A program made the position numbers and the translations under genes. Positions 21,320-27,308 of a stretch of DNA of 64,000 nucleotides are shown here, piece by piece; position 1 is the stretch's first letter, and each line of letters opens with the position of its first letter. Origin of the DNA: Thermodesulfobacteriota bacterium (GTDB taxonomy: Bacteria > Desulfobacterota > GWC2-55-46); contig CP129479.1 in the NCBI GenBank assembly GCA_030583865.1, positions 818,744 to 882,743 on the forward strand, written 5' to 3'. The notes under the pieces were generated by a model. The model was not told where the DNA came from. It saw only the letters and a list, made by a program, of their open reading frames with translations, and made no database searches.

Positions 21320-23455
21320 ATGAACGCCAGGGACTTCGAAAACGAGATACGGATACACGTCGAGGCCAGGTATCCCATACTCTGGCTCGTCTCCTTCGAG
21401 GAGAGAAGGGTCGAGAGGATAGTGGAGTCGCTATGCGACTCCATGAAGCTCAATTTCTGGTCATGGTCGGTTTCCAGGGGCCTCTACGGGGGCGAGAAGA
21501 AGAAACGGGAGCCAATGGGCCGGGAAAAGATACTCTCGGTCATAGAGGAGAAGATAACGAAGGGCGAGAACGTAAGCAACCTCTTCCTTTTAAAGGACAT
21601 AGCCTCGTATTTCAACTCCCACGAGTTCCTCCGCAGGTTCAGAGACCTCCCGGCCATAATAGACGAGCGCCACACCGTCAATACCGTCTTCATCCTTTCG
21701 CCCACGCTCGGCGAGATACCGCCCGAGCTCGAAGAGGACATAGTGGTCCTGGAGCTCTCGCTCCCGGACTACGACGAGATAGCCGACCTGGTCTCCCGGA
21801 CTTACGGCCACCTCATCCCGTCGAGCTGGCACGCCTCCACCAGGTCGATACTCTACAAGTCCCTCCAGGGCCTTTCCCTCGACAACATAAGGAGGGTCAT
21901 AAGGAAGGCCATCAGCCTCAATAACGGCTTCCTCAACGAGGACTGCATATCCTACATACAGGACGAGAAGCAGCAGATAATAAAAAAGCAGAAGATACTC
22001 GACTACTATCCCCACAGGGAGAACATAGAGAACATCGGGGGCCTTAGCGAGATAAAGAAGTGGTTCATCGAGAGGGAGAACGTATTCAGGCTTTCGAGGG
22101 ACAAGATAACGACCCTGGGCCTGGACATCCCCAAGGGCCTCCTTCTCATAGGCGTGCCCGGCTCGGGCAAGAGCCTCTGCTGCAAGGCGCTCGCCGGCAT
22201 ATGGAACCTCCCGCTCCTCCGGCTCGACGTCGGCAGGCTCTTCGGCTCTACGGTGGGCGAGTCGGAAAAGAACATCAGGCGGTGCATACAGCTTGCCGAG
22301 GCGGTAAGCCCGTGTATACTCTGGATAGACGAGATTGACAAGGCCTTCGGCGGCATCGGGGGCTATCAGGGCGACTCGGGCACGCAGATGAGGGTCTTCG
22401 GAACCTTCATCACCTGGCTGCAGGAGAAAGAGCACCCTGTCTTCGTCATCTCCACCGCCAACGAGCCCAGGAACCTCCCGCCCGAGCTCTGGAGGAAGGG
22501 GAGATACGACGAGGTCTTTTTCGTCGACCTCCCGAGCCAGGAGGAGAGGGAGGAGATATACAGGATCCACCTCGAGAGGAGGATACAGAACCTTTCGAAG
22601 ATGGACGTGAAGGAGCTTTCCCAGAACAGCCAGGGCTTTACCGGCGCGGAGATAGAGCAGGCCGTAAAGGACGCGGTCGTCTCGACCTTCAACCACCTTC
22701 AGGAGGAGCACGCGGGAAGGAACATGGAAGAGGTCGTGGACGGGCTTCTCGCTCTCGACGTGACCCAGGAAAGGCTTCTTAAGTCCATACGTCACATAAC
22801 CCCGCTCTCGGTACTGAAAAAGGAGGAGATAGAGGAGCTCAGGGCATGGAGCCACCAGAGGGCCAGGCCCGCGTCCAAGTCCCTCTTCCTCCAGAGGGCG
22901 GAGTCGCTTTCGGAGACCGAGAAGAGGAACATCGCCCTGCACGAGGCCGGGCACGCGGTCCTCATGAAGCGGTACTTCAACCGCACCCCGGCGTTCGTCA
23001 GCATAGACAACTACAAGCCCTACTCGGCCTTCATACCGGTCGACGAGGCCATAAGGACGACCTACACCAAGAGCGACCTCGAAAAGGAGATAGGCGTCAT
23101 ACTCGGCGGCATGGTCGCGGAGGACGAGCTCATAGGGAACGACTCGAAGACCGTCGGCGCCTCACACGACCTCATCCAGGCGACCGGCATAGCCCGGAAG
23201 ATGGTCATAGAATACGGCTTCGGCGAAATAATGAGGAACAAGTCCCTCATGGTCCTCCAGGACTACGCCCTTACCTCGGGCGGGGACGTGCTCGACGACA
23301 TACAGAAGATCCTCGATTCCGCCAAGGAGTCGACCTCCAAGGTCATCTCCGAGAACAAGGAGGTCATCCATGCGCTCGTCGAGAAGCTCATGAAGGAAGT
23401 CCTCATTAACGGCGAAGGGCTCAACCGGTTCTTCAGGGAAAACCCCGTGCAATAA
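21320..23455 (+). CDS. AAA+ ATPase fused to M41 (FtsH-type) peptidase, Ycf46-like N-terminus
   Basis: A 711-residue predicted soluble ATP-dependent protease. The N-terminal 250 residues resemble the Ycf46 AAA family (FENEIRIHVEARYPILWLVS) and carry no membrane helices, unlike true FtsH. The AAA module has Walker A GVPGSGKS (278-285), Walker B ILWIDEID with D337/E338 and the arginine-finger region LWRKGRYDEVF. A C-terminal M41-type domain has the zinc motif HEAGH (541-545) and the third ligand D617 in VGASHDL, 76 residues on, nearly the same spacing as in FtsH. Catalytic residues are intact. It heads a block with Ycf35, DUF2997, radical SAM and Hsp70 genes, so it may be the processing engine of a dedicated proteostasis system; substrates are unknown. 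Confidence 0.85.
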   Translation: MNARDFENEIRIHVEARYPILWLVSFEERRVERIVESLCDSMKLNFWSWSVSRGLYGGEKKKREPMGREKILSVIEEKITKGENVSNLFLLKDIASYFNSHEFLRRFRDLPAIIDERHTVNTVFILSPTLGEIPPELEEDIVVLELSLPDYDEIADLVSRTYGHLIPSSWHASTRSILYKSLQGLSLDNIRRVIRKAISLNNGFLNEDCISYIQDEKQQIIKKQKILDYYPHRENIENIGGLSEIKKWFIERENVFRLSRDKITTLGLDIPKGLLLIGVPGSGKSLCCKALAGIWNLPLLRLDVGRLFGSTVGESEKNIRRCIQLAEAVSPCILWIDEIDKAFGGIGGYQGDSGTQMRVFGTFITWLQEKEHPVFVISTANEPRNLPPELWRKGRYDEVFFVDLPSQEEREEIYRIHLERRIQNLSKMDVKELSQNSQGFTGAEIEQAVKDAVVSTFNHLQEEHAGRNMEEVVDGLLALDVTQERLLKSIRHITPLSVLKKEEIEELRAWSHQRARPASKSLFLQRAESLSETEKRNIALHEAGHAVLMKRYFNRTPAFVSIDNYKPYSAFIPVDEAIRTTYTKSDLEKEIGVILGGMVAEDELIGNDSKTVGASHDLIQATGIARKMVIEYGFGEIMRNKSLMVLQDYALTSGGDVLDDIQKILDSAKESTSKVISENKEVIHALVEKLMKEVLINGEGLNRFFRENPVQ

Positions 23456-23466
23456 GGAGGAGGCAG

Positions 23467-23802
23467 ATGTCCTTCTATACCGTCATAAAGACCGAGCTCT
23501 CTGTAAGGAAGTACCTGATATGCGCCCTCGAGGAGCTCAAGAAGCGCGGCGAGATAACGAGTTTCGTCGCAAGCGAGCGCAAGGACACGATCGAGGTGGA
23601 CAGGGACGGCGACATCATCAATATCTCCAGGGAGAAGACAGGCTACCAGCTCGGCGGCGACAACCGCGTCGTGAACTCTTTTTCCAACAGGCTTAAGCAG
23701 ATGTACGCATACGAGTCCATAAAGGACAACCTCCCGCTCGATTTCGAGATATCGAGCGAGACCGAGACAGCGGGCGAGATACAGATAGTCCTGAAAGGCT
23801 AG
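23467..23802 (+). CDS. DUF1257 (Ycf35-like) protein
   Basis: A 111-residue protein starting MSFYTVIKTELSVRKYLICA with no signal peptide or membrane helix. Length and N-terminus match DUF1257, known in plastids and cyanobacteria as Ycf35. A very strong ribosome site (AAGGAGGAGG) overlaps the upstream protease stop, so the two are made together. Function is unknown in all organisms that I am aware of. Its repeated association with a Ycf46-like ATPase and a DUF2997 protein suggests an adaptor or substrate-binding role, which is inference. Confidence 0.8.
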   Translation: MSFYTVIKTELSVRKYLICALEELKKRGEITSFVASERKDTIEVDRDGDIINISREKTGYQLGGDNRVVNSFSNRLKQMYAYESIKDNLPLDFEISSETETAGEIQIVLKG

Positions 23803-23810
23803 GGGGCTCT

Positions 23811-23996
23811 ATGGACAGGCAGATACGGATACGCATAACGCCTGACGGCAAGGTGGAGATAGATTCGAGCGTCTACAACGACTGCAGGGAAGTGGCCAAG
23901 CAGCTCACTAAGCACCTCGGCACGATGGAGAAGTTCGTCGAGAAGGACGAAGTCTTCGGCGGCGAGGTCCGGATAAAGCTCGAATCCGGGGATTAG
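23811..23996 (+). CDS. DUF2997 small protein
   Basis: A 61-residue protein (MDRQIRIRITPDGKVEIDSS then REVAKQLTKHLG) matching DUF2997 in size and N-terminal beta-hairpin pattern. It starts eight bases after the Ycf35-like gene and is followed by 91 non-coding bases holding a short GGTGTTG-AA-AACACC repeat remnant. DUF2997 genes commonly sit next to DUF1257 genes. It has no cysteines or obvious active site, so a structural or adaptor role is more likely than an enzyme. Confidence 0.75.
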   Translation: MDRQIRIRITPDGKVEIDSSVYNDCREVAKQLTKHLGTMEKFVEKDEVFGGEVRIKLESGD

Positions 23997-24087: not shown

Positions 24088-24657
24088 ATGGACAGCACCC
24101 TTCTTAACATACACGCCATTCTGCCCGGCTCCAGGGTGAACGGCCCCGGCCTGCGGCTCGTCGTCTTTTTCCAGGGCTGCCTTAGGGGATGCGACGGCTG
24201 CTTCAACCCTGCCACGCACTCCTTCGAGGAAAAGGAGCTTTTGCCCGCGGCCTCGCTCATCGACGGGCGCATGGCGCCGGGTGTCGAGGGCTTGACCGTA
24301 AGCGGCGGCGAGCCGTTCCTCCAGCCCCGGGGCCTAAGGGAGCTCCTTGCCGCCGCAAGGGCCAGGGGCCTTTCGACGCTCGTATACACAGGCTTTACGC
24401 TCGAAGAGCTTGAGGCCGGCCTTCTCACGAGGGAATGCCTCCCGCTCATAGACGTCCTTGTGGACGGGCCTTATCGAATTGACATGCCCGAGAAGACGCT
24501 CCTCCCGCGGGGCTCCACGAACCAGAGGTTCCATTTCCTTACCGACCGGTACTCCTTGAACGACCTCATGCTGCCCGGCAGGGTCGAGCTGTTCATCTCC
24601 GGCGACGGGACCGTGAAGGAGACCGGGTTCGGCAGCCTGACCCGGACGGTTTTATGA
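24088..24657 (+). CDS. Radical SAM protein, NrdG/activase-like single-cluster family
   Basis: A 189-residue radical SAM enzyme of the minimal activase type. It has the cluster motif C-x3-C-x2-C in QGCLRGCDGC near residue 30, followed by TVSGGEPFLQP (SAM-binding GGE) and LVYTGFTLEEL. The size and layout are those of anaerobic ribonucleotide reductase and glycyl-radical activases, but no glycyl-radical enzyme lies nearby. The stop overlaps the Hsp70 start (ATGA), so the two are coupled. It may modify a protein of this block; alternatively it is an NrdG that has been recruited here. Confidence 0.8.
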   Translation: MDSTLLNIHAILPGSRVNGPGLRLVVFFQGCLRGCDGCFNPATHSFEEKELLPAASLIDGRMAPGVEGLTVSGGEPFLQPRGLRELLAAARARGLSTLVYTGFTLEELEAGLLTRECLPLIDVLVDGPYRIDMPEKTLLPRGSTNQRFHFLTDRYSLNDLMLPGRVELFISGDGTVKETGFGSLTRTVL

Positions 24658-27308
24658 AGACGAGCCTCGAAGCCCCGAGACAGTATTTGAGCATAGCCAG
24701 GGGCACTGACGACAAGTCCGCCATCCGGAGCCTCATCGTGCGCGCCGGCAGGGAGCTTCCGAAGACCCCCGAGGCCCTCGATCTCTTCGCTTCCGCGTTC
24801 GAGCTCCTCGACCGGATAGAAGACCCCGCCGAAAAGAGGCTCGCACTCCTCGATTTCGCAAAAGAGGTCCCTTGCACCCCGGCCTTCAGCAGGTTCTATT
24901 TCAAGGCCGCCGAAGCTGCCGTTATCGCTGCCGACGCGCTGGACGAGAAGCAGAGGAGGATAACGGAGCTCCTCCGGCTCGCCAACGAGATCCCGAAGGC
25001 CCCGGAGTTCACCGGACTCCGCCTCCTCGCGTGGAGGCTCGCCCTGGGACTTCCGGACAGGCCCAGGTTCGCGGAGCCCGACATAGAGAGGATGGCGAGC
25101 GAGCTCCCCAAGGCGAGCGACATCTCGTTTTTCGCCGGATATGCCCTCCTGGGCGTTGCGAGATTGATGCCAAAGGACGGGCCGTTCCTCCCTGTTTACA
25201 AAGAGGCGATGGAGCTCGCGATACGGGCCGCGGACGCGATAGCCGAGCCGTACTACAGGAGGTACGCCTGTTTGTCCATAGGCGACGAGCTCCCCAAAGA
25301 CGGGGAGTTCGAGGCGCTCCGCTTGAAGGCCTTTGAGGGCGCGTACAGGGCCACCCTCGCCGTCGCCGACCCGTTCGGACGTGAATACTGCCTTATAGAG
25401 CTCTTCCAGGCCACCCCGAAGATGCGCGACTTTTTCCCTCTCATACAGAAGATAATAGAGGACGCGCTCTCCTTCTTCACGGTGCGGAAATGGATGGAGG
25501 ACGTCGAGGTCTTCGACGTGGTCGATTATATACTGTCGGCCGAGGACAACGATATATCGGACTCCAAGAAGAACAGGTTCTCGCGCGAGAAGTACTCCAA
25601 GGCCATGTCGAGGGAGCTCCTTAAATTCGGCGAATCCCTTAACGACACCCGTTTCATAGAGACGCTCAGGCCTTATACGCACGTCTGGATACGCCCCCAG
25701 GCGCTCCGCGATTCCGTCAAAAAAGTCGTGGCCCGCCTCGAGTCCCTGAAGTCCACCTACCACGGGGCCGAGGTCGAGAGGCCGGTCTTCGTATCGGAGC
25801 TGCACCCTGAAACCGGCGTTGCGGTCGTCAAGCAGAAGGACCTTGCGCCGAGGGAGTGCATCTCCATAGACCTCGGGGCGACCAATACCGTCGTCATGCG
25901 GAAAAAGAAGGACGAGGCCCCGGATTTCATGCACCTGGGCTCCATATGCAGGCAGTACGATTCCATCCACATCGTGCCGACGCTCCTTAGCACGGAGACC
26001 AACAACATAGGCGCGGAGGCCTCCGGAGGCAACCCGGTCTCAAACATGAAACAGATGCTCCTGGAGGGGAACCCCAGGGGCAGGGAGCACATGGAGAGGT
26101 TCATAAGGATACTCTACCAGCACATGAAGAAGGCTGCCGTAAATACCGGCTGGTTCTCGATCCTACCCAGGAACGCAGCCGAGGTCGTCTACATGACCGT
26201 GCCGGTCGGCTACCAGGACTACAGCTCCGCGGTCCGCGAGATAGCCTCGAAGGTCATGAGGGGCGCAAGGGTGGAGCTGATCGAGGAGCCGCTCGCCGCT
26301 GCCGTGGGCTACCAGGTGGCCGACGACAGGGACAGGCTCATAATGGTCATCGACTTCGGCGGAAGCACGCTCAATACGATGGTCGTAAGGCTCAACATGG
26401 ACGAGGTCCATATAGTGGCAAAGCCCGAGAGGGCGCTCATGCTGGGCGGCCACGACATCGACCACTGGCTCGCCGGGCACCTCTCGGCAAAGGCCGGCAT
26501 AACCGGCGCTTCCCGCGAAAGCCTCCGCCTCGCGGCGGAGGAGGTGAAGATTAGGCTCTCCGAGAGGAGCGAGGCGCCGTTCGTATGGGACGGCATGGAG
26601 GCAGCCAAGGTCACGAGGGACGAATTCGAGGAGGTCCTCGAAAAAAGGGAGTTCTACGCGACAGTCGACCGCGCCATCATAAACGTCATAAAGAGGGCTG
26701 AGAAGGTCGGCGTGAGGAAGGAGGCCATAGAGGCCATACTTCTGACGGGCGGCTCGTCGCAGATACCGTCATTCAAGGACAAGATAGGCGACATTTTCCC
26801 TGAGCTCAGGGCAGGAAACCTCATCTACGACCACAGCCCGCTGACGGCGGTCGGCATGGGGGCGGCCTTCTACGGCACAAGGGACGTGACGGACAGGCAC
26901 CTTGCGATGGCGTACGCCCTACGCTACGCGCCGCACGAGAAGGACGTAACGCACTCCTTCTGCATCGTGCTTGAGAAAGGCGAGCAGCTCCCGCTCGAGA
27001 AGGCGTTCAGGCTCAGGCCCGCAAGGAAGCTCGGACTGCAAAGGGAGATAACCCTGGAGCTCTTCGAGATACCCGAGAGGCTCCTTGCGAGGAGATGGGT
27101 GGTCGAGGACGGCATAGAGTACCTTAAGCAGGAGCTTAAGGAGACGGCCGGGGAGGCCCTTCCCGGGCTCAAGCCCTTTACGCTTGTTTTCGATGAGGCC
27201 GTTCCCGACGAGGTACACGTGGCATTTTGCGTCAGCGGGTCGGGAGAGGTTTCCCTCAAGTACGGCCCGCACGGAAATACCGTGGAAACCGGCCTCAAGC
27301 TCCAGTAA
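24654..27308 (+). CDS. Hsp70-family ATPase with N-terminal helical-repeat domain
   Basis: An 884-residue fusion. Residues 1 to about 390 form an all-helical region with at least five recurrences of a PK-centred motif (ELPKTPE, EIPKAPE, ELPKASD, LMPKDGP, ELPKDGE), suggesting tandem helical hairpins. From C402 an Hsp70/actin ATPase core follows: phosphate 1 SIDLGATNT, VELIEEPLAAAVGYQ, phosphate 2 MVIDFGGSTLNT, and adenosine motif LLTGGSSQIPS. The C-terminal 150 residues are too short and divergent for a DnaK peptide-binding domain. The helical region may replace it as the client-binding part. Coupling to a radical SAM enzyme and an AAA protease is unusual. Confidence 0.85.
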   Translation: MKTSLEAPRQYLSIARGTDDKSAIRSLIVRAGRELPKTPEALDLFASAFELLDRIEDPAEKRLALLDFAKEVPCTPAFSRFYFKAAEAAVIAADALDEKQRRITELLRLANEIPKAPEFTGLRLLAWRLALGLPDRPRFAEPDIERMASELPKASDISFFAGYALLGVARLMPKDGPFLPVYKEAMELAIRAADAIAEPYYRRYACLSIGDELPKDGEFEALRLKAFEGAYRATLAVADPFGREYCLIELFQATPKMRDFFPLIQKIIEDALSFFTVRKWMEDVEVFDVVDYILSAEDNDISDSKKNRFSREKYSKAMSRELLKFGESLNDTRFIETLRPYTHVWIRPQALRDSVKKVVARLESLKSTYHGAEVERPVFVSELHPETGVAVVKQKDLAPRECISIDLGATNTVVMRKKKDEAPDFMHLGSICRQYDSIHIVPTLLSTETNNIGAEASGGNPVSNMKQMLLEGNPRGREHMERFIRILYQHMKKAAVNTGWFSILPRNAAEVVYMTVPVGYQDYSSAVREIASKVMRGARVELIEEPLAAAVGYQVADDRDRLIMVIDFGGSTLNTMVVRLNMDEVHIVAKPERALMLGGHDIDHWLAGHLSAKAGITGASRESLRLAAEEVKIRLSERSEAPFVWDGMEAAKVTRDEFEEVLEKREFYATVDRAIINVIKRAEKVGVRKEAIEAILLTGGSSQIPSFKDKIGDIFPELRAGNLIYDHSPLTAVGMGAAFYGTRDVTDRHLAMAYALRYAPHEKDVTHSFCIVLEKGEQLPLEKAFRLRPARKLGLQREITLELFEIPERLLARRWVVEDGIEYLKQELKETAGEALPGLKPFTLVFDEAVPDEVHVAFCVSGSGEVSLKYGPHGNTVETGLKLQ

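Follow-up and report, generated by a model that had tools for sequence, protein, structure and literature searches.

A conserved Ycf46-M41 fusion protein without a membrane anchor, encoded together with DUF1257, DUF2997, radical-SAM, and Hsp70-like genes

The known AAA proteases of the M41 family are bound to membranes, and Ycf46 is a widespread plastid and bacterial protein whose function is unclear. A gene in the 64,000-nucleotide stretch of Thermodesulfobacteriota contig CP129479.1 analyzed here (hereafter, the window) joins the two. The gene lies on the + strand at 21320..23455 (stop codon included), begins with ATG downstream of a plausible ribosome-binding sequence, and encodes a protein of 711 aa; this call rests on the open reading frame, Pfam matches, orthologues, and profiles. 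An initial annotation of the locus described a Ycf46-like ATPase with a complete M41 peptidase domain and no membrane anchor, and took it for either an evolutionary intermediate or an independent soluble M41 protease. Our literature search, in which subscription journals were mostly beyond reach, found no paper on a Ycf46-M41 protein.

Domain architecture and the Ycf46-M41 joint

Two Pfam domains score over their cut-offs in the 711-aa protein, namely AAA at residues 274-403 (E 4e-30) and Peptidase_M41 at residues 530-701 (79 bits against a cut-off of 29.9, E 5e-22). A whole-genome search identified 3 M41 proteins in the 2.75-Mb genome, i.e., the fusion and two ordinary membrane FtsH. We scored the fusion segment by segment with profiles built from 74 M41-less Ycf46 proteins and 50 FtsH proteins. 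The Ycf46 profile yielded 139 bits (E 3.5e-44) for residues 1-225, 297 bits for residues 226-405, and 86 bits for residues 406-520, and it did not match residues 521-711. The FtsH profile, in turn, yielded 81 bits for residues 521-711 and 70 bits for the AAA core, with no match to the N-terminus (residues 1-225). Profile searches of the two ends had been proposed in the initial annotation, and they indeed connect the N-terminal part to Ycf46 and the C-terminal part to Peptidase_M41. The Ycf46 likeness that it had placed at the N-terminus is present there but not confined to it, as it spans residues 1-520 including the AAA core (297 bits vs 70 for FtsH).

The sequence can be divided into four parts, all on the + strand. 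Residues 1-225 (21320..21994) form a Ycf46-type N-terminal, D1-like AAA domain, as judged from the Ycf46 profile and a superposition on p97; no Walker A motif (GxxxxGK[ST]) was found in these residues, and the N-terminal 227 residues searched alone against PDB sequences gave no credible match. They are followed by an active-type AAA core (residues 226-405; 21995..22534), recognized by Pfam AAA, profile bits, and invariant residues, in which Walker A occupies 278-285, the pore loop F308-G309, Walker B 333-340, and the arginines positions R392 and R395. Residues 406-520 (22535..22879) comprise a Ycf46-type lid and C-terminal helix (..LRAWSHQRARPAS), delimited by the end point of M41-less Ycf46 proteins. 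The Peptidase_M41 domain covers residues 521-711 (22880..23455), as supported by Pfam, the FtsH profile, and PDB alignments to YME1 and FtsH.

Among Ycf46 proteins without M41, the nearest (cyanobacterial, planctomycete, Sumerlaeota, and Deferrisomatales; ~38-43% identity) stop at ..LRxWxxxRARxAS or a close variant, which is the point directly before the M41 domain of the fusion. Since M41-less Ycf46 proteins end where M41 starts, the Ycf46 part appears to be complete and the peptidase a C-terminal addition; at the level of sequence, the protein is chimeric, and its joint is clear-cut. An artificial chimera, a frameshift, or an assembly artefact is ruled out by the 46 distinct family proteins known. 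In addition, the orthologues are 68-98% identical, nearly all are full length, and the fusion is present in ~43 of the 59 relatives searched, which places the arrangement far beyond chance.

Active site, solubility, and predicted fold

The M41 domain carries a predicted zinc-binding and catalytic motif, HEAGH, at residues 541-545 (22940..22954, + strand), and D617 (23168..23170, + strand) is the predicted third zinc ligand, aligned with the third-ligand column of FtsH. In the alignment, 76 residues separate H from D, vs 77 in Thermotoga maritima FtsH (3kds). The maximum hydropathy over 19 residues ranges from 1.17 to 1.34 across the fusion family, compared with 2.45 and 2.96 in the two FtsH of the same genome, and by this measure none of the 46 distinct family members has a hydrophobic stretch of membrane strength, in agreement with the absence of an anchor noted initially.

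The fusion peptidase looks active, and we consider it likely that the protein is a soluble, probably hexameric AAA+ zinc metalloprotease in which a Ycf46 motor feeds a C-terminal M41 ring, as part of a cytosolic module with its operon partners. It is unlikely, in our view, that M41 instead serves as an ATP-independent or limited-processing zinc peptidase that, e.g., matures an operon partner while the motor remodels a fixed complex instead of supplying a degradation chamber. This would be in keeping with the fact that most Ycf46 proteins act without a peptidase, that the operon partners are few and specific, and that the M41 domain of the fusion lacks the loop found between the C-terminal helices of FtsH. 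However, no variation occurs among the 46 members at K284/S285 of Walker A, D337/E338 of Walker B, F308-G309 of the pore loop, or R392/R395; the constancy of the pore loop and arginines argues against limited processing, as does the position of M41 after the AAA lid, the same order as in FtsH. A catalytically silent M41 scaffold resembling the FtsHi proteins is markedly less probable still. The M41 domain is strongly diverged and its PDB matches include inactive relatives of the FtsHi type, but H541, E542, H545, and D617 stay the same in all 46 distinct family members while pairwise identity between the M41 domains falls to 48%, and one would expect drift at a site that had fallen silent. The complete M41 active site initially described, with both zinc-ligand motifs at nearly FtsH spacing, is upheld by the family alignment and the alignment with 3kds.

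An AlphaFold2 model of the fusion, calculated from a 73-row alignment, reached a mean pLDDT of 82 and a pTM of 0.73; an earlier model from 17 close homologues was poor (pLDDT 60). The model can be superposed over residues 225-711 on Aquifex aeolicus FtsH, with 407 aligned residues, a Z of 28.2, and an rmsd of 5.9, and over residues 2-515 on the p97 D1-D2 tandem (e.g., Z 26.7, rmsd 4.2, 483 aligned). HEAGH falls within a predicted helix at 532-553 and D617 within another at 612-630. The model suggests the order D1-like AAA without Walker A, active AAA, and protease, and it is the model that supports a double-AAA plus FtsH-like fold. The FtsH-like portion of this fold shares some of its basis with the sequence evidence, because the underlying alignment (A2) includes FtsH rows.

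Distribution and origin of the fusion

The fusion is kept in many uncultured bacteria; beyond the relatives mentioned above, two other families of the phylum also have it. Among the matches listed, the hosts are Deltaproteobacteria and Nitrospirae MAGs, and there may be other host lineages besides these. In the Ycf46 tree, the M41-bearing proteins constitute one fully supported group, which is consistent with M41 having been gained once on Ycf46. The M41 tree, which is unrooted and samples FtsH through 46 M41 domains from several phyla, likewise places the fusion M41 domains in one group (support 100/100) apart from all 46 FtsH domains. The fusion M41 domains are very diverged: the branch leading to them is very long, at ~4 changes per site relative to the sampled FtsH. 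Given this separation, the fusion M41 was apparently not derived from the FtsH of its hosts, and descent from the host's own FtsH is unsupported by the tree; it may stem from a lineage that split off before the known FtsH diversified. A single group in the Ycf46 tree together with a separate M41 group indicates that the fusion is derived and arose on a Ycf46 motor already in existence, and that it is no step between Ycf46 and FtsH. The idea of an evolutionary intermediate is consequently not supported, and its counterpart, an independent and apparently soluble M41 AAA+ protease, accords with the separate M41 group and the lack of a membrane helix.

A mobile origin of the fusion was rejected, as no plasmid record covered 80% of the fusion query and four viral contigs match it only up to about residue 535, i.e., without M41.

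Several related proteins were encountered in these searches. M41-less Ycf46 homologues are found on plasmids (e.g., Pseudanabaena NZ_CP112875.1), one of them adjoining a DUF2997 gene, and the phage family PHROG 8638 matches fusion residues 3-545. A 1611-aa protein (L168 7288-12120) has a Ycf46-like region after >1000 residues without a Pfam match. The genome that carries the fusion also encodes, ~27 kb ahead of the window, an AAA protein of 323 aa that is neither FtsH nor Ycf46 (G000:C1:791215-791790, locus L046). In one MAG (L048 6001-8128, L007 1458-3585), the fusion gene is broken near its 5' end into frames of 84 aa and 677 aa, which reflects a frameshift or sequencing error.

Operon partners, proposed function, and known systems

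Four genes follow the fusion on the + strand. The first, at 23467..23802, starts 11 bases past the fusion stop codon and encodes a DUF1257 (Ycf35)-like protein of 111 aa; its direct Pfam match is weak (0.095), and an iterated profile links it to the DUF1257 protein of the M41-less locus L082, which itself matches Pfam at 3.5e-24. The second, at 23811..23996, encodes a DUF2997-like protein of 61 aa, under the Pfam cut-off (2.5e-4) and connected by profile to the DUF2997 protein of L082 (Pfam 2.7e-17). An orphan NrdG/activase-like radical-SAM protein with a CxxxCxxC motif is encoded at 24088..24657. The last gene, at 24654..27308, overlaps the radical-SAM stop codon by 4 bases and specifies an Hsp70/actin-fold ATPase (Pfam HSP70, 2.6e-19) that begins at about residue 400, behind a helical N-terminal half, and whose phosphate and adenosine motifs are invariant. 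The short spacings, together with the 4-base overlap of the radical-SAM and Hsp70-like genes, suggest a single transcript. The radical-SAM protein is NrdG/PflA-like. A search of the complete genome found no NrdD and no glycyl-radical domain, and an NrdG function was rejected on this ground.

The gene order Ycf46-M41, DUF1257, DUF2997, NrdG-like radical SAM, and Hsp70-like recurs across the clade, including the Nitrospirae MAGs. In the relatives, the AAA, DUF1257, and Hsp70 genes are either all present or all absent, and the cases that deviate come from fragmented or contig-edge assemblies; this conservation suggests that the operon neighbors share a pathway. Other families of the same phylum combine an M41-less Ycf46 with DUF1257, DUF2997, and an Hsp70-like protein, often with a HEAT-repeat protein, which implies that the peptidase was added to a pre-existing module. 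In the M41-less operons L082 and L159, separate HEAT-repeat and Hsp70-like genes take the place of the fused Hsp70 ATPase of the window. An IetA-type anti-phage AAA system is very improbable: the AAA domain matches IetA profiles (PADLOC 1.4e-31; NCBIfam 1.3e-29) and the radical-SAM protein weakly matches viperin profiles, but the NCBIfam IteA match reaches 103.6 bits against a cut-off of 510 and covers the generic AAA core only, no known defence partner was recognized in the operon, and the locus keeps one gene order through the whole lineage.

For the soluble protease that we favor, we infer a hexamer, ATP-driven proteolysis, a cytosolic location, and roles for the partners. A D1-like ring, predicted not to bind nucleotide, would stack onto the active ATPase ring, whose pore loop is aromatic, and may take over the assembly role of the FtsH membrane anchor. 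The Ycf46 motor would thread substrates into the C-terminal M41 ring with its HExxH...D zinc site, and the DUF1257 (Ycf35), DUF2997, orphan radical-SAM Fe-S, and Hsp70-like proteins probably select, prepare, or deliver those substrates. A Ycf46 unfoldase or remodelling factor would thus have gained its own peptidase in the fusion lineage. More tentatively, the fusion could define a new M41 AAA+ protease class, soluble and anchor-free, that uses a Ycf46 double-AAA motor in place of the membrane-anchored FtsH motor. It would act in redox-linked quality control with DUF1257, DUF2997, radical-SAM, and Hsp70-like partners, and its M41 may derive from a lineage predating FtsH diversification; this is a possibility that we regard as rather less than even.

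The conserved Ycf46-M41 fusion suggests that the poorly understood Ycf46 motor unfolds or remodels proteins, or works in their degradation, an idea that can be tested directly. Structural studies of M41 proteases may also gain from it a version free of an anchor; a passage in PMC5095350 describes the membrane anchor of YME1L as driving hexamerisation of the catalytic domains and names it as an obstacle to such studies.

Work on cyanobacteria and plastids gives a possible context. In Synechocystis, DUF2997 and ycf35 cluster with the ferredoxin gene fed7; the Fed7 protein is required during oxidative, metal, and iron-limitation stress and has a DnaJ-like protein as a binding partner (PMC4284462). 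Loss of ycf46 and ycf35 from red-algal plastids is related to habitat (PMC5940233). According to a passage in PMC7496141 citing Jiang et al. 2015, the gene slr0374 (Ycf46) sits in an operon that responds to stress, and EcaB carbonic anhydrase activity is reported to fall when the gene is inactivated. By analogy, the literature on fed7, ycf46/ycf35, and slr0374 would fit a redox- or Fe-S-linked quality-control or remodelling module.

Compared with known systems, the fusion is closest to Ycf46 of cyanobacteria and red-algal plastids (Synechocystis slr0374), which is homologous to residues 1-520 from end to end (~38-43% identity to the nearest) and shares the D1-like domain, AAA core, lid, and C-terminal helix as well as the linkage to DUF1257 and DUF2997 genes. 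Every other Ycf46 protein examined ends near residue 520, whereas the fusion continues into the M41 peptidase after the C-terminal helix, and we therefore class it as a fusion variant rather than a plain Ycf46. FtsH, i-AAA, and m-AAA proteases (MEROPS M41) have in common with it an AAA module followed by M41 with HExxH and a distal Asp; it differs from FtsH in lacking the membrane anchor and the C-terminal M41 loop, in its Ycf46-type AAA, and in an M41 domain outside all sampled FtsH, and it scores 181.9 bits with the FtsH model TIGR01241, below the cut-off of 600. The tandem AAA proteins p97/Cdc48 resemble it in the modeled D1-D2 arrangement of residues 2-515, but they bind nucleotide in two AAA domains, whereas the first AAA domain of the fusion is a fold match without Walker A; the fusion also has no p97-type N-domain and has a peptidase of its own. 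Finally, the cyanobacterial DUF2997-ycf35(DUF1257)-fed7 cluster (PMC4284462) likewise places DUF2997 and DUF1257 beside an Fe-S protein, and the chaperone link of Fed7 through its DnaJ-like partner has a counterpart in the Hsp70-like gene of the window operon, which differs in carrying a radical-SAM protein instead of a ferredoxin and in including an M41-bearing Ycf46.
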